From: Candidatus Coprousia avicola
Lineage (GTDB): Bacteria; Actinomycetota; Coriobacteriia; Coriobacteriales; Coriobacteriaceae
Reading direction: 5' to 3'
NCBI GenBank assembly: GCA_018715125.1
Contig: DVMF01000064.1
Coordinates: 1-47,434, forward strand
Length of the DNA stretch: 47,434 nucleotides
Shown here: piece by piece, positions 224 to 47,434 of the stretch
Numbering within the stretch: position 1 is the stretch's first letter
How the letters are laid out: each line of letters opens with the position of its first letter
Notes under the pieces: generated by a model
What the model was told of the DNA's origin: nothing
Databases searched by the model: none
The model's input: only the letters and a program-made list of their open reading frames with translations
Translations under genes and position numbers: made by a program

Positions 224-1500
224 CTGGCCTGAAGAACGCTTTCCGCATCAAAGATCTGCGCGAAAAGATTCTCTTCACCATAGCGATGCTCGTGGTGTAC
301 CGCATCGGTGCCCACGTGCCTGTGCCCGGCATCCCCTTCGGGGAGATGGTGGACTTGTTCAGCGGCGACAACTCTGTCGCCGCTGGCGCTATGTCGCTCC
401 TGAATCTTTTCTCGGGCGGCGCGCTCAGCTATGTGTCGGTGTTCTCGCTTGGCATCATGCCCTACATCACGAGCTCGATCATCCTTCAGATGCTCCAGAG
501 CGTGGTGCCGAGCCTGCACGAGCTTGCCCGTGAGGGCGAGGTCGGTCAGACCAAGATCACCCAGTATTCTCGCTATCTGACGCTGGCGCTTGCGCTGCTC
601 AACTCGATCGGCTATCTCTTCCTCTTCAAGGGATACGGCATCAACTTCAACGGTGCCGGCGCTCCGGAGATCATCTTCGATATCCTCATCGTCGGTACGC
701 TCACCGCCGGTGCCATGCTCATCATGTGGATCGGCGAGCTCATCACCCAGCGCGGTATCGGCAACGGCATGTCGCTCATCATCTTCGCCAACATCATGGC
801 GGGGCTGCCGGCGGCTATCGTCTCCTCCGCCGCCGAGGGCACGATGGGCATCGTCATCACCGCGGTGATCTTCGTGGTCATCCTCTGCGTGATTCCGCTC
901 ATCGTTTATCTCGAGCGCGGTCAGCGCCGCATCCCGGTTCAGTACGCCAAGCGCGTTGTGGGCCGCCGTATGATGGGCGGTCAGTCCACCTACCTGCCCA
1001 TCAAGGTCAACACCGCGGGCGTCGTGCCAATCATCTTCGCGAGTGCGCTTCTGTACTTCCCGGCTCAGCTCGCCGTGTTCTTCCCGGGCATCGGCTGGGT
1101 CCAGGCAGTCGCGGGCGCGCTGGCGAGCGGTTGGATCAACTGGATCTTGAACGTCGTCCTCATCGTGTTCTTCGCCTACTTCTATACGAGCATGGTTTTC
1201 AACCCCGATGAGACGGCTGACAACCTGAAGAAGCAGGGTGGCTTCATCCCGGGCGTGCGTCCTGGCAAGGCCACGGCTGCCTACATCAAGAACGCCCTCA
1301 ACAAGATCACCCTGCCCAGCGCGATCTTCCTGGCGCTTATCGCCATCGTGCCGTCCATCGTGTTCTCGTTCACGGGCAACCAGCTCATCCAGTCGTTTGG
1401 CGGCACCTCGGTCCTCATCATGGTCGGCGTGGTCCTCGATACGCTTGCCAAGGTCGAGAGCCAGCTCAAGATGTATGATTATGACGGGTTCTTCAAGTAG
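217..1500 (+). CDS. secY: Protein translocase subunit SecY
   Basis: SecY is the channel-forming subunit of the SecYEG translocon in the cytoplasmic membrane; SecA, also in this window at 35840, drives export through it. The 427-residue length is normal for the family. It begins [20 protein letters not shown] and shows the typical alternation of about ten hydrophobic helices. Conserved stretches include the [10 protein letters not shown]-like loop (here [16 protein letters not shown]) and the cytoplasmic loop [14 protein letters not shown] that contacts the ribosome and SecA. The GTG at 217 is chosen because it gives the family N-terminus; it overlaps the end of rplO by 7 bp. adk follows 25 bp downstream in the same operon. 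Confidence 0.97.
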
Positions 1501-1525
1501 ACATAAGACTTGAGAGGAGTCAGCC

Positions 1526-2152
1526 ATGAACATCGTTTTGCTCGGAGCTCCGGGCGCTGGTAAAGGCACCGTTGCCCAAGAACTCGTAGAGGACTTCGGC
1601 TTTGCCCACATCTCTACGGGCGATCTGCTCCGCGCTGCCGTGAAGAGCGGCAGCGAGCTCGGCGTCAAGGCCAAAAGCTACATGGACGCCGGTGAGCTCG
1701 TTCCCGACCAGCTCGTTATCGACCTGGTGAAGGAGCGCCTGGCCGCCGATGATGCTCAGAAGGGCTTCATCCTCGATGGCTTCCCGCGCAACACCATGCA
1801 GGCGGTCACGCTCGATTCTGAGCTCGGCGCTATGGGCAACCCGCTCGATGCGGCGCTGCTGATTGATGTCGAGCCCAAGGTGATCATCGAGCGCCTGTCC
1901 AACCGTCGCACCTGCCGCGCCTGCGGCTACACCGGCACCGCTGCCGACGAGGTGTGCCCCAAGTGCGCCGGCGAAATGTATCAGCGCGACGATGACAAGC
2001 CGGAGACGATCGCTAACCGTCTCGACGTGTACGAGAAGAACACCAGCCCGCTCGTCGAGTACTACCGCGGGCAGGGGCGTCTCGACGTCGTCAACGGTGT
2101 TGGTACGGTCGCCGAGGTGCATGAGCGCGTTAAGGAAGCGCTTGGTCTATGA
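1526..2152 (+). CDS. adk: Adenylate kinase
   Basis: Cytoplasmic adenylate kinase converts AMP and ATP to two ADP. The protein is 208 residues. The P-loop GAPGAGKGT is at residues 7-15. The LID domain carries four cysteines, C130, C133, C144 and C147 (CRAC and CPKC pairs), so this is the zinc-binding form common in Gram-positive bacteria. The start ATG has the ribosome-binding site GAGAGGAG about 7 bases upstream. The 3' end overlaps map by four bases (ATGA), which is the usual secY-adk-map arrangement and suggests coupled translation. Confidence 0.97.
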   Translation: MNIVLLGAPGAGKGTVAQELVEDFGFAHISTGDLLRAAVKSGSELGVKAKSYMDAGELVPDQLVIDLVKERLAADDAQKGFILDGFPRNTMQAVTLDSELGAMGNPLDAALLIDVEPKVIIERLSNRRTCRACGYTGTAADEVCPKCAGEMYQRDDDKPETIANRLDVYEKNTSPLVEYYRGQGRLDVVNGVGTVAEVHERVKEALGL

Positions 2153-2937
2153 TCAAAATTAAGTCTGCACAAGAGGTCGAGCAGATGAAGAAAGCCGGGG
2201 CGCTGTCTAAGATGGCGCTCCGGCACGTTGGTGCCATGGTGCGCCCTGGCGTCTCGACGTTCGAGCTCGATCAGCTCGCTGAGCAAATCATCCGCATGCA
2301 TGGCGGTATCCCCACGTTCAAGGGGTACGGCGGATTCCCGGGTTCCATCTGCGCGTCCTTGAACGACGCCGTGGTGCACGGTATCCCCAACCCCGATATC
2401 ATCCTGCGCGACGGCGACATCATCTCGATCGACACCGGGGCCACCGTTGACGGCTGGGTGGGGGATAACGCTTGGACGTTCTACGTTGGCAACCCCTCGC
2501 AGGAAGTCAAGGCGCTCTGTGAGGTCACGCTCGACTGCCTCAAAGAGGGCATCAGGCAGGCCGTGCCGGGCAACCGCGTGGGCGACATCGGTCATGCCAT
2601 CCAAAGTCTGGCCGAGCATCATGGGTACGGCGTGCTGCGCGAGTACGTGGGGCATGGCGTCGGTCGCGTGATGCACGAGGACCCCAACGTCCCCAACTGG
2701 GGCAAGAAGGGCCGCGGCGTCAAACTCGAGGCCGGCATGGTTATCGCCATCGAGCCCATGATCACCCTCGGCACCTACCATGTGAGCGTGGGAGCCGACG
2801 GCTGGCTCGTCACCACCGATGACGGGCTGCCTGCGGCGCACTATGAGAACACCATCGCCATCACCAACGATGGCCCGGTGATTCTTACGCAGGATGCGCA
2901 GGGGCCGTGGTGCTCACTTCAAGGCGGCGTGATGTAG
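2149..2937 (+). CDS. map: Methionine aminopeptidase, type I
   Basis: Removes the initiator methionine from nascent proteins in the cytoplasm. The 262-residue length fits the type I enzyme without an N-terminal zinc-finger extension. The two metal-binding aspartates are seen in IDTGATVDGWVGDNAW, the metal-binding histidine in GHGVGRVMHEDP, and the two glutamates in AIEPMI and ENTIAIT. The start ATG overlaps the adk stop. A hairpin terminator-like structure follows at 3001-3036, so infA probably has its own transcription or is reached by read-through. Confidence 0.97.
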   Translation: MIKIKSAQEVEQMKKAGALSKMALRHVGAMVRPGVSTFELDQLAEQIIRMHGGIPTFKGYGGFPGSICASLNDAVVHGIPNPDIILRDGDIISIDTGATVDGWVGDNAWTFYVGNPSQEVKALCEVTLDCLKEGIRQAVPGNRVGDIGHAIQSLAEHHGYGVLREYVGHGVGRVMHEDPNVPNWGKKGRGVKLEAGMVIAIEPMITLGTYHVSVGADGWLVTTDDGLPAAHYENTIAITNDGPVILTQDAQGPWCSLQGGVM

Positions 2938-3000
2938 CGCGTTGCTTGCCAGTTTGCCGGTAACAGGCAAAGCGGTGACATGCGCGGGCCTATTGCCCAA

Positions 3001-3036
3001 CGCAAGAAGGAGGCTCCGGTAGGGGCCTCCTTTGCG
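3001..3036 (+). terminator. Hairpin after map (weak terminator or attenuator)
   Basis: AAGGAGGC (3007-3014) pairs perfectly with GCCTCCTT (3025-3032), and the outer CGCAA/TTGCG can extend the stem with a small bulge. Only a short T run is present at the 3' side, so termination may be partial. It separates secY-adk-map from infA-rpmJ-rpsM. Confidence 0.55.
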
Positions 3037-3086
3037 ATATAGGTCAAGCTCCTTTCCTCAAGATCGGGCGAAGCTAAGGCGAAGTC

Positions 3087-3125
3087 AAAGGTCCCGGTGT
3101 GCTGGAGGAAACAGCGGGAGCCTTT
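3087..3125 (+). other. Structured hairpin upstream of infA
   Basis: The bases can fold as AAAGG/CCTTT (3087-3091 with 3121-3125), TCCC/GGGA (3092-3095 with 3116-3119) and GCTG/CAGC (3101-3104 with 3112-3115). The terminal loop is GAGGAAA. A second small perfect dyad GATAGCG/CGCTATC lies at 3157-3180. Both are in the 284-bp gap between map and infA, which otherwise holds no gene. The role is unknown; an untranslated leader for infA is one possibility. Confidence 0.35.
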
Positions 3126-3221
3126 GCTAAATGTGGAGTCGATACGAAAAACACACGATAGCGAGCTGAAGTGCGCTATCATACGCTGTTGCTGTATGTT
3201 TCGCGAGAGAAAGATGTGCTT

Positions 3222-3440
3222 GTGAAGAAGGAAGATGCCATCGAGCTTGAGGGCACGGTAACCGAGCCGCTCCCCAATGCCATGTTCCGCGTCGAGCTTG
3301 AGAATGGGGCCTCGGTCCTGTGCTCCATCTCGGGCAAGATTCGCATGAACTACATCCGCATCCTTCCCGGTGACCGTGTGGTTGTGGAGATCTCTCCCTA
3401 CGACCTCACGCGCGGGCGCATCACCTATCGCTACAAATAG
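3222..3440 (+). CDS. infA: Translation initiation factor IF-1
   Basis: IF-1 is a small OB-fold protein that binds the A site of the 30S subunit during initiation. The GTG at 3222 is chosen because it gives exactly 72 residues ([18 protein letters not shown]...), the normal family length, and because the purine run GAGAGAAAG ends 8 bases upstream. The GTG at 3216 would add two residues. The frame stays open upstream to 3171, but that text ([14 protein letters not shown]) does not look like IF-1. The conserved core [11 protein letters not shown] and the C-terminus [13 protein letters not shown] are present. Its place between map and rpmJ is the common Gram-positive order. Confidence 0.95.
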
Positions 3441-3574
3441 CAGCCCGTATCGGATGGGGAGGGGAGCGCTCAAGCCCCGAGCCGTTCGGTGCGCTCATCA
3501 GCCGGTTATTCACGTCTGCGGCTGGACGAGTAGATAGTAGGTATACGTTTGAGCACAACTGAGAGGATCGCATC

Positions 3575-3688
3575 ATGAAGGTACGTCCTTCCGTCAAGAA
3601 GATGTGCGACAAGTGCAAGATCATTAGGCGCCACGGCAAGGTGCTCGTTATCTGCGAGAACCCGCGCCACAAGCAGCGTCAGGGTTAA
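3575..3688 (+). CDS. rpmJ: 50S ribosomal protein L36
   Basis: A 37-residue gene that reads [14 protein letters not shown] and continues with the zinc-ribbon pattern. The ligands are C11, C14, C27 and H32 in CDKC...CENPRH, so this is the zinc-containing form of L36. GAGAGG lies just upstream of the ATG at 3575. It is followed 15 bp later by rpsM, as in most bacteria. The 134 bp between infA and rpmJ show no other gene. Confidence 0.96.
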
Positions 3689-3703
3689 AGAGAGGAGACT
3701 ACG

Positions 3704-4078
3704 TTGGCCCGTATTAGCGGTGTCGATCTCCCGCGCGAGAAGCGCATCGAGATCGGTCTGACCTACATTTACGGCATCGGCCGCACCACCGCCAGCAAGA
3801 TCTGCGCGGAGACGAACATCAACCCGGATACGCGTGTCAAGGACCTCACCGAGGAGGAAGTCGACACCATCCGTAAGTACATCGATGAGGCCGGTCTCAT
3901 GATCGAGGGCGACCTGCGTCGTGAGCACAACCAGAACATCAAGCGCCTCATGGACATCGGCTGCAACCGTGGCCTGCGTCACCGCAAGGGCCTGCCGGTC
4001 CGCGGTCAGCGCACCCACACCAACGCTCGTACCCGCAAGGGTCCGAAGCGTCAGATCGGTGCCAAGAAGAAGAAATAA
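3704..4078 (+). CDS. rpsM: 30S ribosomal protein S13
   Basis: S13 sits in the head of the small subunit and contacts the P-site tRNA and the large subunit. The start is a TTG at 3704, preceded by AGAGGAG, giving the family N-terminus [20 protein letters not shown]. The 124-residue length is typical. The helix-two-turn-helix part ([12 protein letters not shown]) and the basic C-terminal tail ([16 protein letters not shown]) are present. It is co-transcribed with rpmJ and rpsK. Confidence 0.97.
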
Positions 4079-41728: not shown

Positions 41729-44188
41729 CTATTCCAGTTCGGTCAGCAGATAGTTTGCCAACGCCCGGCAGCAGGCGAGATGCATGGCATCGGGGCTAGG
41801 ACCTGCAAACTGGCTCAGCAATCCGCCGGGGACGCTCTCAAGGTTACCGTGCATTTTTTCATAGAGTCCGAGTGTAAGATCGTCGATTGAGCTCCCTATG
41901 TTCATATCCGAAAGCAGAGTCGAAAACCTATTGAGATACATTTCGGCATTTCCATAGTACAGCGCAAGGCTCGAGGAAATTGGATGTCTTGAATCCGCTT
42001 GATCGGATAAAGCCAGGCTAGCGATGCTGATTGCATCAGCGTCGGTGTACAGATCCGGGCAGTTGCATGCTGAGGCCCCTTGCACCGCCCCGATAACAGC
42101 GTTAGCGGCATTTTGGAACGCCCCCATATCAGATGGATCGTCAAGCGATGCATAAGCAGAGGCAAACCCTGTTGCTAGGTCGCCGCCCCATCCGGTCCAG
42201 AAATTGGGGACAGATCCTGTTGGGGCATAGCCCTCCACAACAGCCATGAGATGACAGTAGTCGACGCGGCCCTCGAGCGCGGGGTCTGTGAACAGAGGGC
42301 TTGTTTCACCAAGTATCGACTGGAAATAATCATGAAGGGAAGCATGATAGAGCTCCATGAACCCGATGAAATCTTGGTTGATGGGAGCAAGAAGTGAAAT
42401 TGCCCAAGCTATTGAACCGTATCGAGGCGCTCTCAGATAGTTGGTGGTACCGAGAGCGAGTTCGTTTTGTGTCGGTGTTCTTTGGTTTGCAGCCTGGAAG
42501 TATTCGACATAGCAGTTTTCAAGATCCTCAACATGAGGAATGGTGTCGACAATATGCAAAGCTTCGACGAGGCTATCTTTCTGGGGCTGCGCGTAGTAGG
42601 GGGTGTACCTTGACTGACCTGCGTCGCGCCCCTTTTCGATACCCTTGTCGACGCTAAACGACCCATCGCTTGCGCTTAGCGTATATTCAAGAATCTGATC
42701 GAATGCCCAGTTTTCGGGGAGTGAGTAACCGAGGTTTCCGCTGTAGCCCGTTGACATATCTGCGATAAAACTATTCGTCGCCAAGTCTCGCGCCATGATA
42801 ATGCCGCAGGTGTTTCGTGCACTATAGATACCGACAGCATAAGGTGAGCCATAGGATTTGAAGAAATTGTTTATGCCGCTAAAGTGTGGAACAACTTTGT
42901 TGTAGACCTCTCCTTCCATATAGTCGTAATCCACAGCAAAGTAGATGGTGGAGCCCATGGGTATGCCTGCGCTTAGGGCTGCCAGCATAGCCTTGCGTGC
43001 ATCAGAGAATCCTCTGCTATAGCTAAAGTAATCGGAAAGATCTTCGTGCGTTTGCCACCAATCAGTATCATCTTGGAAGATGCAGAAGTAGCGCATGCCT
43101 CCTGAGATGATTCGCTCCATTTCCTCGCGAGTTAAAAATTTATCGTGTCGAGACGCTCCAGAACCAGCCGATCCTGTAAGGTAGCGTCCTACGATGCTGT
43201 ATCCGTCATTGCGGAGGGCGGTGACCTTTTGGGTGCTGAGCTGAGTAGCGCAGTCGCAGGATGTGCCGTTGCGTTGCTGGTTTCCCGTACTTACAAGGAG
43301 CGACATCCATTCGTCGAGACCCAGAATATCTCTGACGGGAAGAGCGTAATCGCTTTGAAATGTATGGAGAGCATTAAGCATTTCATTGGTGAAGGTACCG
43401 CTGAACTGACCGGGAGTATATCGATTGATAGCCGAGCCTCGATACCGGTCGATCCCATTGCAATAGAGGGTGTACTGCGCAAGTTCGGTAAATCTGCTCA
43501 TTTGTGTACTTGAATAGGGCTTGTTGCCGTATCCATATTGCTGTGTGCCGGTGTTAAGATCCGGGCACCACGTTCGAGTTGTTGGGCCGAACGTGCCGTT
43601 AGCTGTTCCGACGGGTAACCCCTCTTCCGCCTGAAGGGCGTAGATGAAGGCCTTCGAGGTGGAGCGCCCCACCACTCCGTCGGCTGCACAGATATCCGTG
43701 TACTCGAGATAGAGATGATTGAGCGTGCGCTGGATGTAGCGAACGCGTGCATCGCCTCCCGCAATGAGCTTGTACTCATCAACGCCGCATGCTGCCTTCA
43801 TTTGTCTGCCGGCTGCGGCAGTCGAAGCTTGATTGCTGTCAAGCCCCGCGTCTCCTTGTATTTCGAGAAGGGCGTTTTGCGTTGCCAGACTAAAGTGCCC
43901 ACTACATGAACCAGAATCATAGCCTTTTCCCTGTAAAGCATACTGAAGAATTCGCACCCTATTATTCTCGTCACCGTGCGATAGGGGTGCCGCGTCGCAT
44001 TTCGCATAGGTTTGTTCACCGAAGATACCGGTTATGGTTGGGAGCCCAAGCTCAATTTGAAGCGCAGAAACGAGTGAAGAGGAAAAAGCACTTCCTGGTA
44101 TTCCATTTTCCTCAACAGGGATGTATCCAGCCCGATTTGCATAAGTTGTGTTGAGCCATTGCTGAGCTTCGAGAACGATATCTGACAT
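41729..44188 (-). CDS. Peptidoglycan-binding repeats plus DUF1906 glycoside-hydrolase-like domain
   Basis: An 819-residue protein in A+T-rich DNA. Residues 1 to about 285 hold several peptidoglycan-binding-like units (NRVRILQYALQGKGYDSG, DARVRYIQRTLNHLYLEYTD, GTFTNEMLNALHTFQSDY). From about 325 to 560 comes a DUF1906 domain (VTALRNDGYSIVGRYLTGS, IPMGSTIYFAVDYDYMEGEV, PYAVGIYSARNTCGIIMARD), related to the Rv2525c type and placed near glycoside hydrolase folds. A C-terminal region of about 250 residues is unrecognised. No signal peptide or anchor is visible, which is odd for a wall-binding protein. GGGAGA precedes the ATG. It is divergent from the Tat-exported gene. Confidence 0.75.
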   Translation of the reverse strand: MSDIVLEAQQWLNTTYANRAGYIPVEENGIPGSAFSSSLVSALQIELGLPTITGIFGEQTYAKCDAAPLSHGDENNRVRILQYALQGKGYDSGSCSGHFSLATQNALLEIQGDAGLDSNQASTAAAGRQMKAACGVDEYKLIAGGDARVRYIQRTLNHLYLEYTDICAADGVVGRSTSKAFIYALQAEEGLPVGTANGTFGPTTRTWCPDLNTGTQQYGYGNKPYSSTQMSRFTELAQYTLYCNGIDRYRGSAINRYTPGQFSGTFTNEMLNALHTFQSDYALPVRDILGLDEWMSLLVSTGNQQRNGTSCDCATQLSTQKVTALRNDGYSIVGRYLTGSAGSGASRHDKFLTREEMERIISGGMRYFCIFQDDTDWWQTHEDLSDYFSYSRGFSDARKAMLAALSAGIPMGSTIYFAVDYDYMEGEVYNKVVPHFSGINNFFKSYGSPYAVGIYSARNTCGIIMARDLATNSFIADMSTGYSGNLGYSLPENWAFDQILEYTLSASDGSFSVDKGIEKGRDAGQSRYTPYYAQPQKDSLVEALHIVDTIPHVEDLENCYVEYFQAANQRTPTQNELALGTTNYLRAPRYGSIAWAISLLAPINQDFIGFMELYHASLHDYFQSILGETSPLFTDPALEGRVDYCHLMAVVEGYAPTGSVPNFWTGWGGDLATGFASAYASLDDPSDMGAFQNAANAVIGAVQGASACNCPDLYTDADAISIASLALSDQADSRHPISSSLALYYGNAEMYLNRFSTLLSDMNIGSSIDDLTLGLYEKMHGNLESVPGGLLSQFAGPSPDAMHLACCRALANYLLTELE

Positions 44189-44342
44189 AGCAAGTCTCCC
44201 TATTTGCGGTGGAACAATACAAAATATTAAATACCCAATATATAACAAAGAACACATATAATAATATATACTTAAGTAGGAGCCCACATTAGCCCGGATT
44301 GAAGAAGTAGGCAATGGGTTTTGAGGCAAAAAGGGGGATGTG
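44189..44342. promoter_or_regulatory. A+T-rich divergent promoter region
   Basis: About 154 bases between two divergent genes, with TATATAACAAAG and TATAATAATATATAC stretches. TATAAT at about 44257-44262 could serve the rightward gene. Exact boxes cannot be set with confidence. Confidence 0.5.
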
Positions 44343-45065
44343 ATGAGAAAGCACATGATAGGGAAGGGCGCTATGGGTCTGACGAGAAGAGCTTTCCTCA
44401 CCAGTGCGGTAACGGTCGGAATTGGCATGCTGTTGCCCGATAAGGCAAATGCTGAGCCCAATGCCTTTCTGTATGCTGAAAGTCCGACTGTATATGGTTA
44501 CAGCACCGATGGATATTATCAGTTTTCCGGCAACATGCAGCTGGGGGTTGAGGAGGGTGCGCGTTCAACTCTATGGACGAATTTTGAGTGCAACCGCATT
44601 TGTGCGGAGGGATCGATACTGACCATCGCTTGGATTCAATATGGAATTGAGATGGTGGCAACAACTCGGGATTTGAATGAGGCAAGGACGGATCGTCGCT
44701 ATGTGACAACGGTGTGCAATCATACGAACAACTATGGCGCGGGAGTCATCGGTTACTCCCAGGTCTTTTTAGATCAAGTCGCTGGGGGCAATCTGGACTA
44801 TGGGACCGTCAGCGCTGGTCCATTTGTAAACTCATCGGCTGAGTCGTTCAATTTCTCCTCAGGCTCAGGGAGGTTTCCGGCTCGGGGAACGAAAGGCGAG
44901 CACGGGGAAATACAGCTTGACGATATTTTGTATCCGACGGCAATCGATCGGCGGGAGCGCTCTCAGTATTTTGGCAAGCATGCTGGAAAGGTCTACATCC
45001 CCTTGTATAAGCGGGGTAGCGATGAGGTCATTGGGAGATACGGAATAGACAACACGCTTTCATAG
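44343..45065 (+). CDS. Tat-exported protein of unknown function
   Basis: The 240-residue product starts with RKHMIGKGAMGLTRRAFLTS, a twin-arginine motif (TRRAFL), then a hydrophobic core and ANA|E as a likely signal peptidase site. Mature text includes GYYQFSGNMQLGVEEGAR, two cysteines (CNRICAE) and a third in TTVCNHTNNYG, and ends YGIDNTLS. No family is recognised. The ATG at 44343 is chosen over the overlapping GTG at 44340 because AAGGGGG lies a few bases upstream. It is divergent from the peptidoglycan-binding gene; a shared role at the cell wall is inferred only. Confidence 0.65.
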   Translation: MRKHMIGKGAMGLTRRAFLTSAVTVGIGMLLPDKANAEPNAFLYAESPTVYGYSTDGYYQFSGNMQLGVEEGARSTLWTNFECNRICAEGSILTIAWIQYGIEMVATTRDLNEARTDRRYVTTVCNHTNNYGAGVIGYSQVFLDQVAGGNLDYGTVSAGPFVNSSAESFNFSSGSGRFPARGTKGEHGEIQLDDILYPTAIDRRERSQYFGKHAGKVYIPLYKRGSDEVIGRYGIDNTLS

Positions 45066-45389
45066 GTGATGATGGCTACAGTGTCTCGGCTTTCTAGTAT
45101 GTGTCTCGGCGGCACTGGGGTCTACTGTGCGGGTTTGCCACAGGTGTGTCCAGAGCGAGCCGACGCTGGTTTTGACGGTGGGTCCGACCTTTATTAGTGC
45201 GGGGCTAACGGTTGCTTGTCACAATCGGCACGCTTTACTTTGCTGGTGGTCTCCGTGGCGACGACGTCCGCTTGTGCTGATCTAGTAGTGGGCTCGCGCG
45301 GGAAAGAGCTCGCTCAACGGTCTTCACGCTTTCTGCATGCTGCTATATAATCTCATAAGATGATATTCAGAATATAGAAAGTATTGTCT
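45066..45389. other. Intergenic region before the radical SAM gene
   Basis: The 324 bases hold a short frame (45069-45197, 42 codons, three Cys) without a good ribosome-binding site, a 10-base direct repeat GTGTCTCGGC at 45081-45090 and 45101-45110, and the promoter at 45323-45351. I see nothing else; a decayed element is possible. Confidence 0.4.
45323..45351 (+). promoter_or_regulatory. Promoter of the radical SAM gene
   Basis: TTCACG (45323-45328) and a perfect TATAAT (45346-45351) are exactly 17 bases apart. The leader would be about 32 bases, with AGAAAG before the ATG at 45390. Confidence 0.7.
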
Positions 45390-46619
45390 ATGCATCTTGG
45401 CGAGCATATTGTACGGTTTTCGATGGGCTCGATTCCGGTAGTGGGGAATACCGTTGCCGGTGCTATCGTCGGGCTCACTCCGAGTGGGGCACAGCTGTGC
45501 GACCGGATGCTCGAGCAGGATGTTGCCGAGACCGAGGTCCCGAACGATTGCCGGGAGTTAGTTGAGTATCTACAGGCGCACGGGTTTTTAGCGAGTCAAA
45601 ACGCCGTGCGAGAAACCTCAATAAAAAGCGCGTATCTGCATGTGACGAACCGATGCAATCTGGATTGCATTGGGTGCTACTCGCGCGACAGCGCTCGTAA
45701 TCGGGCGGAAGACCCGTCGTTGGAGGATCTTCAGCGCGCAGTGCGACTTCTGGCCGACCTCGGCATCACTCAGCTGATCATCTCTGGCGGTGAGCCATTT
45801 ATGCGCGGCGATCTCGCAGAGATTGCTCGAACTGCAAAAGAGTGCGGCGTGGCAAAGGTTGTTGTGCTGACCAACGGGATGCTTTGCTCGCAAGAGCGTT
45901 TGGTCGAACTGCAGGGTGTCGTCGATACGATTTCCGTTTCATTCGATGGGGCCTCGGCTGAAGACCCGGCGTTTATTCGGGGCTCGCAGCTTTATCGACG
46001 GTTGGTTTCTGCAGTGCGGGACATTACAGATGCAGGCATCCACGCACATATCCTAGTCACGCTCCATGCCAAGAATATCGAAGACGTTCCTCGATATCTG
46101 ACGTTGGGTGAGATGCTTAAGGCCACGGTTGGATTTAGCCTGCTGAGCGGCAGAGAGAGCGAGCTTGGTGACCTGTATCCTTCGGAGGGCTGTCTTGCTC
46201 GACTTGCTGAGATCATGTTTGAGCATAATGCCAGCAACGGAGATGGCGCGGTAGCGCATACCGAGGACGTTGGATTGCGTGCGTGTGTATCGTGCGGCGC
46301 GGGCAGGACGGGCGTTAGCGTTGCAGCCGATGGATCGATCTATCCGTGTCACATGCTGCAGCATCCAGAGTTCTGCCTTGGTAATGCGTTTTGTGACACC
46401 GAGGGCCACCTGAGGAAGGAAATAGCAAGGTTCGTACTGCCAACGGTTGACGAAATGGCTGGATGTTCATCATGTGACAAGCGCTACTTGTGTGGAGGTG
46501 GTTGCAGGGCAAGAGCGTATAGGCAGTATGACGAGATTGAGAAAAAAGACCCCTACTGCACTTTCTACCGCAATATTATTTGTGCTGCGGTAGAGGAGCT
46601 CAATGACACATATCACTAG
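45390..46619 (+). CDS. Radical SAM/SPASM peptide maturase with N-terminal PqqD-like part
   Basis: A 409-residue radical SAM enzyme. Residues 1 to about 70 look like a PqqD/RRE leader-binding domain (VVGNTVAGAIVGLTPSGAQL, then LVEYLQAHGFL). The radical SAM cluster cysteines are C89, C93 and C96 in CNLDCIGCYS; ISGGEPFMRGDL is the usual SAM-binding region. The C-terminal SPASM part has CVSCGAGRTG, YPCHMLQHPEFCLGNAF, then CSSCDKRYLCGGGCRARAY and DPYCTFY, enough cysteines for auxiliary Fe-S clusters. Such enzymes modify ribosomally made peptides. The ATG at 45390 is chosen over TTG 45384 by AGAAAG spacing. A small peptide gene starts 7 bp after the stop. Confidence 0.88.
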   Translation: MHLGEHIVRFSMGSIPVVGNTVAGAIVGLTPSGAQLCDRMLEQDVAETEVPNDCRELVEYLQAHGFLASQNAVRETSIKSAYLHVTNRCNLDCIGCYSRDSARNRAEDPSLEDLQRAVRLLADLGITQLIISGGEPFMRGDLAEIARTAKECGVAKVVVLTNGMLCSQERLVELQGVVDTISVSFDGASAEDPAFIRGSQLYRRLVSAVRDITDAGIHAHILVTLHAKNIEDVPRYLTLGEMLKATVGFSLLSGRESELGDLYPSEGCLARLAEIMFEHNASNGDGAVAHTEDVGLRACVSCGAGRTGVSVAADGSIYPCHMLQHPEFCLGNAFCDTEGHLRKEIARFVLPTVDEMAGCSSCDKRYLCGGGCRARAYRQYDEIEKKDPYCTFYRNIICAAVEELNDTYH

Positions 46620-46625
46620 GAGGCT

Positions 46626-46706
46626 ATGATGCTTTTTGTAATTCAGTCTGTCAAAGAAGAATTCCCGGTTTGCGTACCTGTCGGGGGCATTGTGATTGGT
46701 TTCTAA
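46626..46706 (+). CDS. Candidate RiPP precursor peptide, 25-26 residues
   Basis: A perfect AGGAGG (46618-46623) overlaps the stop codon of the radical SAM gene and leads to ATG 46626 or, with better spacing, ATG 46629. The peptide is hydrophobic with a charged middle (KEE) and ends EEFPVCVPVGGIVIGF, with one cysteine, then TAA. Position, coupling and the PqqD-like domain on the enzyme suggest it is the substrate. No known precursor family is recognised. A weak dyad ATTGGTT/AACCATT spans the stop codon. Confidence 0.6.
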   Translation: MMLFVIQSVKEEFPVCVPVGGIVIGF

Positions 46707-47261: not shown

Positions 47262-47434
47262 GTGCCTATCGTCATGCGTCTCGATCGAGTTATGGCGGAT
47301 CGCAAGATGTCCTCCCTTGAACTTGCTGAGAAGGTTGGCATTTCTCCTGTTAATATCTCGCGCATCAAGACGGGTCGCCTCAAGGGTATCCGATTCTCTA
47401 CGCTGACCGCCATGTGCGAGGCGCTCCATTGCAA
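47262..47434 (+). CDS. XRE/YozG-like DNA-binding protein, N-terminal part
   Basis: The window ends inside this gene; 57 complete codons are visible. The GTG at 47262 has GGGAGG 6 bases upstream. The text is a helix-turn-helix of the Cro/C1 type: RLDRVMADRKMSSLELAEKV, then GISPVNISRIKTGRLKGIRF and STLTAMCEALHC. Small regulators of this kind usually follow DUF2975 genes and are about 65-80 residues long. It probably controls its own pair. Confidence 0.85.
   Translation, partial: MPIVMRLDRVMADRKMSSLELAEKVGISPVNISRIKTGRLKGIRFSTLTAMCEALHC

Follow-up and report, generated by a model that had tools for sequence, protein, structure and literature searches.

What is made from the short open reading frame (ORF) that follows a radical S-adenosylmethionine (SAM) enzyme gene at the end of a contig of Candidatus Coprousia avicola? 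The window analyzed here is that one whole contig (DVMF01000064.1, or G000:C40; 47,434 nucleotides). In the initial annotation, the two genes were proposed to form an undescribed locus for a ribosomally synthesized and post-translationally modified peptide (RiPP), with a 409-residue SPASM-type maturase and a coupled peptide of 25–26 residues. Comparisons with orthologous loci give good support to a previously unnamed family of short radical-SAM peptides, referred to here as CxxIG, which is encoded by a four-gene unit. The maturase almost certainly remodels the 25-residue peptide and probably cross-links its cysteine.

To establish that the peptide gene is real, 78 orthologous loci of up to 18 kb each were compared with the window, for a total of 79. 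Three of these (L071, L108, and L127) are uninformative because of contig ends. In 66 of the 79 loci, an ORF with the pattern MLF...C...G is located between -31 and +138 nt from the maturase stop. In seven other loci (L102, L106, L112, L113, L119, L125, and L128), the gene order is rearranged, such that the peptide gene lies approximately 2.2–2.4 kb 5' of the maturase stop and approximately 1 kb before the maturase start, and the DUF2975 gene comes after the peptide gene where it was called. Thus, an intact peptide gene is present in 73 of the 76 informative loci, consistent with the proposed coupling. As for the remaining loci, the peptide gene is frame-shifted in L140, while in L109 and L123 the maturase and the regulator remain but the peptide and DUF2975 genes are both gone. 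Shuffled loci contain 26 ORFs with the family pattern per 3.7 Mb (both strands), which corresponds to a chance expectation of about 0.06 within the 79 x 200 nt beside the maturase stops, compared to the 66 observed. Moreover, the frame is under purifying selection, with a ratio of non-synonymous to synonymous changes (pN/pS) of 0.25 (52 synonymous and 43 non-synonymous differences over 10 independent close pairs) rather than random substitutions. A chance ORF would be conceivable for a frame of only 26 codons, but the scarcity of expected matches and the purifying selection rule it out, leaving a probability that is practically nil.

The small frame holds two in-frame ATG codons, at 46626 and 46629. 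The AGGAGG that overlaps the maturase stop codon TAG (46617–46619), as annotated initially, lies 2 nt from the first and 5 nt from the second. Nearly all orthologous peptides start with MLF, and one pair has a GTG start and reads MQF. Because the orthologues begin with MLF and the Shine-Dalgarno spacing is better, 46629 is likely the start codon used, giving a peptide of 25 amino acids.

The precursors share a conserved pattern that differs from the PVC.P.GG-like end proposed at first. Among 68 aligned precursors, M1, F3, C15, and G24 (numbered as in the window peptide) never vary and L2 rarely does. The family signature is MLF...C-x-x-[IV]...[IV]-G-x, and in many precursors the C-x-x-[IV]-G unit occurs a second time. 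The precursors span 21–64 amino acids and contain one to three cysteines; the residues that separate MLF from the first cysteine vary, although position 6 is usually acidic. The C-terminal residue also varies (F, Y, V, I, A, T, M, L, and others) and the precursors of L105 and L133 are extended at this end, making a cofactor excised from the C-terminus less likely. Among 72 distinct precursor sequences, 27 have a single cysteine beyond the start region, which is always 10 residues from the C-terminus. In these, C+3 is always I, V, or F and C+9 is glycine in all 27; since C+4 varies in these precursors, the glycine at C+9 may instead be the acceptor or a recognition element. The other 45 precursors have two or more cysteines and most carry C-x-x-[IV]-G twice, with glycine at position +4 from the last cysteine in all 45 and from the first cysteine in 42.

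In the maturase phylogeny inferred with FastTree, the single- and double-cysteine precursor types are found in largely separate clades. Host families f1 and f5 have members in both maturase clades, each with the matching precursor type; the precursor type thus tracks the maturase and not the host family. The exceptions are all within the single-cysteine clade, namely L117 and L120 (CACC) and L087 (an extra cysteine at position 5). These two versions on two maturase clades provide a natural comparison of ring placement. Additionally, L136 (approximately 900–4030, minus strand) has two tandem MLF precursors. In a separate observation, L083 (approximately 2786–3590, minus strand; ORF at +4763 from the maturase stop) encodes an additional precursor, MLFHSEAQMMSLCFAIGILEIGY, accompanied by a separate DUF2975 gene and regulator gene, while the stretch read contains no second maturase.

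The MLF N-terminus, at 46629–46637 in the window and in nearly all orthologues, may be only a motif for recognition by the maturase. The formylated tripeptide fMLF is the classic agonist motif of formyl peptide receptors. A released product that retains the formyl group at its N-terminus would carry fMLF.

The maturase has a Pfam Radical_SAM match (2e-22), and Pfam SPASM was detected in 15 of 15 family members. Its length of 409 residues is counted from the ATG, while an alternative TTG start at 45384 would give 411. The CxxxCxxC motif and the cysteine-rich SPASM end were both annotated correctly, and all of the cluster cysteines are invariant in an alignment of 66 orthologues. The SPASM spacing (C302-x12-G315-x4-C320 ... 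C359-x2-C362-x5-C368-x3-C372-x17-C390) fits the full seven-cysteine motif found in anSME-type enzymes, such that two auxiliary Fe-S clusters are expected. An AlphaFold2 model based on the 66-row alignment has a predicted local distance difference test score (pLDDT) of 93.9. The nearest solved structure is CteB (5why/5wgg; Z 28 over residues 5–408; Foldseek E-value 5e-20), which is also the best Protein Data Bank (PDB) profile match (E-value 2e-31). In the fold search, anSME and ChlB structures match the catalytic part and SuiB and TigE rank lower, with the rows below CteB mostly reflecting the general radical SAM fold.

Among the many sub-cut-off NCBIfam matches, that to the streptosactin maturase StsB is the widest and strongest across members (15 of 15). 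The window protein scores 99.6 bits against this model (NF045574; cut-off 625) over most of its length, 63.4 against TIGR03974 (SCIFF; cut-off 425), 87.1 against TIGR02109 (PqqE; cut-off 381), and 89.4 against TIGR03962 (mycofactocin; cut-off 265). No NCBIfam model reached its cut-off in the maturase searches, and membership in the StsB, SCIFF, PQQ, and mycofactocin families is ruled out by scores this far below the cut-offs.

For the N-terminal segment, the initial annotation suggested a PqqD-type leader-binding domain. The Pfam PqqD model has no match in any of the members, while the predicted fold agrees with a leader-binding role. When modeled alone, the first 78 residues form three strands and two helices (pLDDT 90.7), and the best PDB matches are RiPP recognition elements (RREs), namely those of TigE (Z 7.8), TbiB1 (Z 7.6), and CteB (Z 5.9). 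The RREs of ThcOx, PbtF, SuiB, and a lasso B1 protein are also among the top matches. Given the small size of the domain, the Foldseek E-values are weak (best 0.03), but RRE domains account for nearly all top rows, as well as most top VIA-align rows. The model thus establishes the N-terminus as an RRE by its predicted fold rather than by sequence.

The cassette is larger than the two-gene unit of the initial annotation. In neighbor clustering, the only widely shared genes are those for the maturase, the precursor, a DUF2975-like membrane protein, and a Cro/C1-type HTH_26 regulator, and all four are co-stranded in 69 of the 79 loci. Regulator orthologues match PF13443 at approximately 1e-20, and 78 of the 81 regulator-profile hits in all fetched DNA are inside cassettes. 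Pfam PF11188 (DUF2975) matches 29 of 49 orthologues of the membrane protein (best E-value 6e-7). The flanking genes vary (LysR, NUDIX, HAD, EamA, RNB, and an ABC ATPase). No conserved protease, exporter, or classical immunity gene was found among the cassette neighbors, and ABC ATPases are near only a few loci.

The joint loss in L109 and L123 suggests that the precursor and DUF2975 are functionally tied. Two other arrangements are informative regarding the DUF2975-regulator pair. L136 lacks this pair and instead has an ABC ATPase, a 267-residue protein with no Pfam match, and a CPBP/Rce1-like protease. The best NCBIfam match of this ATPase, below the cut-off, is of the lantibiotic-protection type. 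Based on its gene content, L136 appears to be the most bacteriocin-like version of the family. A second DUF2975-like/HTH_26 pair occurs in a further RiPP-like cluster of the same genome as the window (G000:C32:1-4337; L171), after a different SPASM maturase (best match TIGR04463, 278 bits, under the cut-off). The gene order there is the end of a CPBP-type protease, the SPASM maturase, an ABC permease-ATPase, and then the pair. Given these arrangements, we infer that the pair serves to sense modified peptides or to confer immunity to them. In the open-access literature, DUF2975 is named in two papers only, a single time in each. Its conserved pairing with the regulator allows a role of this unexplained membrane family in RiPP sensing or immunity to be tested directly.

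The maturase was searched for in 100 relatives, and a profile of 15 rows was then run against 397 genomes belonging to the same order. Orthologues are present in 75 of these 397 genomes (E-value <= 1e-70), such that the cassette adds an unnamed radical-SAM peptide family in about one-fifth of the related genomes searched. Outside of the order, none was found among the 149 genomes of the class and 198 of the phylum sampled (E-value <= 1e-60). A contig scan with patterns from this one protein returned five distant relatives only and has little bearing on the spread beyond the phylum. Searches of plasmids, phages, and viral contigs found distant SPASM relatives only and no family member. In line with the initial annotation of an undescribed RiPP, no library names the family. 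The precursors have no NCBIfam or Pfam match and, being so short, escape the RiPP and protein-family libraries tried. No description was found among 5.39 million open-access papers, although subscription journals were mostly outside of the search and may hold one. For context, a survey of anaerobes in 2014 reported no sactipeptides in Actinobacteria (PMC4289311). Methods to transform Coriobacteriia are available (PMC9734109).

These patterns make it moderately probable that the cassette is a compact RiPP system that produces a narrow bacteriocin or a signal. The RRE would bind the N-terminal MLF-[acidic] part of the precursor, and the radical SAM center with two auxiliary clusters would form a thioether at each conserved cysteine, with an alpha-carbon as the most probable partner. 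The linkages would most likely be sactionine-like. Since the C-x-x-[IV]-G unit occurs in tandem, the rings would be small and within this unit, with a single ring in the window peptide and two unnested rings in two-cysteine precursors, a topology comparable to that of streptosactin. The DUF2975 and Cro/C1 proteins would work together in sensing of, immunity to, or autoregulation by the product, which may act on close relatives of the producer. Given that no protease or exporter is conserved, release would have to rely on housekeeping functions, unless the site of action is intracellular or at the membrane.

Several points weigh against this account. The modification is predicted from sequence and fold, the StsB score is far below the cut-off, and several non-thioether maturases score nearly as high. 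A conserved cysteine could also take part in other chemistry or function unmodified. In single-cysteine precursors, C+4 is variable (G, F, L, A, W, or E), which makes the acceptor uncertain. The lack of a conserved protease or exporter leaves the release of a bacteriocin unexplained. Finally, the window protein itself has no DUF2975 match, such that its label comes from other family members. One alternative is that the maturase modifies the peptide by different chemistry, such as a ranthipeptide (beta/gamma) thioether, a C-C cross-link, or epimerization, with the cysteine and glycine used for positioning. The PapB, WgkB, and DynA-type maturase models also score, the fold matches include the structures of the EpeE epimerase and SuiB, and the spacing from cysteine to acceptor is not uniquely set in single-cysteine precursors. 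However, an invariant cysteine and a second cysteine within a copied C-x-x-[IV]-G unit better fit one S-linked ring per cysteine, and the positions after the cysteine lack the conserved acidic or aromatic acceptors that would be expected with PapB- or cyclophane-type chemistry. Such chemistry is considered unlikely, but not strongly so.

Alternatively, the peptide may be a signal and not a growth inhibitor, with the modified ligand sensed by DUF2975 and relayed to the Cro/C1 regulator, which would control the cassette or other genes. That the pair is the only conserved partner, that DUF2975 vanishes with the peptide in L109 and L123, and that the conserved genes include no exporter, protease, or classical immunity gene all fit this hypothesis. 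Yet the search for a shared operator 5' of the cassettes found none, only words resembling ribosome-binding sites, and the replacement of the pair in L136 by a lantibiotic-protection-like ABC ATPase and a CPBP protease resembles a bacteriocin cluster. A purely signaling role is therefore possible but doubtful. A more specific scenario, in which an almost leaderless MLF peptide bearing thioether rings in one or two C-x-x-[IV]-G units acts as an unexported DUF2975 ligand with relay to the Cro/C1 protein, is quite unlikely; if true, it would represent a new RiPP class and a modified-peptide sensing circuit. Finally, the small frame could encode a regulatory leader peptide or a small partner of DUF2975, with the maturase substrate located elsewhere. 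It is very short with no obvious leader/core boundary and lies directly 5' of the DUF2975 gene in most loci. This is nevertheless highly improbable given that the peptide stays with the maturase in the seven rearranged loci and, in L136, even without DUF2975, that cysteine number tracks the maturase clade, and that the maturase possesses an RRE.

Table 1. Coordinates of the CxxIG cassette features in the window.
Feature	Position	Strand	Basis
Sigma-70-like promoter TTCACG-N17-TATAAT, 5' of maturase	45323..45351	+	Consensus match read from sequence
RRE-radical SAM-SPASM peptide maturase (predicted), 409 amino acids	45390..46619	+	Pfam, orthologue alignment, AlphaFold2
N-terminal RRE (by predicted fold), approximately residues 1–75	45390..45614	+	Separate AlphaFold2 model and PDB RRE matches
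Radical SAM motif C89xxxC93xxC96	45654..45677	+	Invariant in 66 sequences
SPASM region, cysteines C302, C320, C359, C362, C368, C372, and C390	46293..46559	+	Invariant; Pfam SPASM
Shine-Dalgarno AGGAGG of peptide gene	46618..46623	+	Similar ribosome-binding site at orthologous loci
Precursor peptide MLFVIQSVKEEFPVCVPVGGIVIGF, 25 amino acids	46629..46706	+	Conservation, pN/pS; alternative ATG at 46626
DUF2975-like membrane protein, 166 amino acids	46742..47242	+	Orthologues in most cassettes
Cro/C1-type (HTH_26) regulator, 5' part only	47262..47434	+	Orthologues match PF13443

The promoter is exactly as initially annotated, with TTCACG at 45323–45328, a 17-bp spacer, and TATAAT at 45346–45351 (Table 1), and it is not kept as an alignable block upstream of orthologous maturases. 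The contig end falls inside the fourth gene. Upstream of the cassette, positions 44340–45065 encode a 241-residue protein with an RR-containing, twin-arginine translocation (Tat)-like signal sequence, which has no Pfam or NCBIfam match and is absent from other cassettes. Adjoining the cassette, positions 41729–44461 (minus strand) hold a 910-residue frame with repeats that, by impression from the translation only, resemble peptidoglycan-binding repeats.

Among known systems, streptosactin (GggA/GggB, StsB family), a type II sactipeptide of Streptococcus, likewise depends on an RRE/SPASM radical SAM maturase. It is a 14-mer with a pair of unnested four-residue sactionine rings, Cys25-Ser28 and Cys31-Gly34 (PMC8172795, PMC13361665), and the tandem C-x-x-[IV]-G repeats of CxxIG are reminiscent of these two small thioether rings. 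However, the CxxIG cassette lacks the GGG motif, the Rgg/SHP regulator, and a dedicated protease. Its precursor is shorter with an invariant MLF-type start, and its maturase is distant from StsB (99.6 bits versus the cut-off of 625). The SCIFF maturase CteB, which forms thioethers and is the best structure and profile match, also has an RRE and a full SPASM domain, whereas the SCIFF peptide has six cysteines, compared to one to three in the 21–64 residues of CxxIG precursors. PqqE/PqqA and MftC/MftA are similar in having an RRE-assisted SPASM enzyme and a short peptide encoded next door, but the variable C-terminal residue of CxxIG precursors indicates that the product is not a Tyr-derived cofactor. 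Finally, the streptococcal RaS-RiPPs (including the WGK, KxxxW, HGH, NxxC, and QMP types) resemble CxxIG in having a short precursor beside a maturase and a regulator, while their motifs differ and their regulation involves Rgg/SHP in place of the HTH_26 and DUF2975 proteins of the CxxIG cassette.
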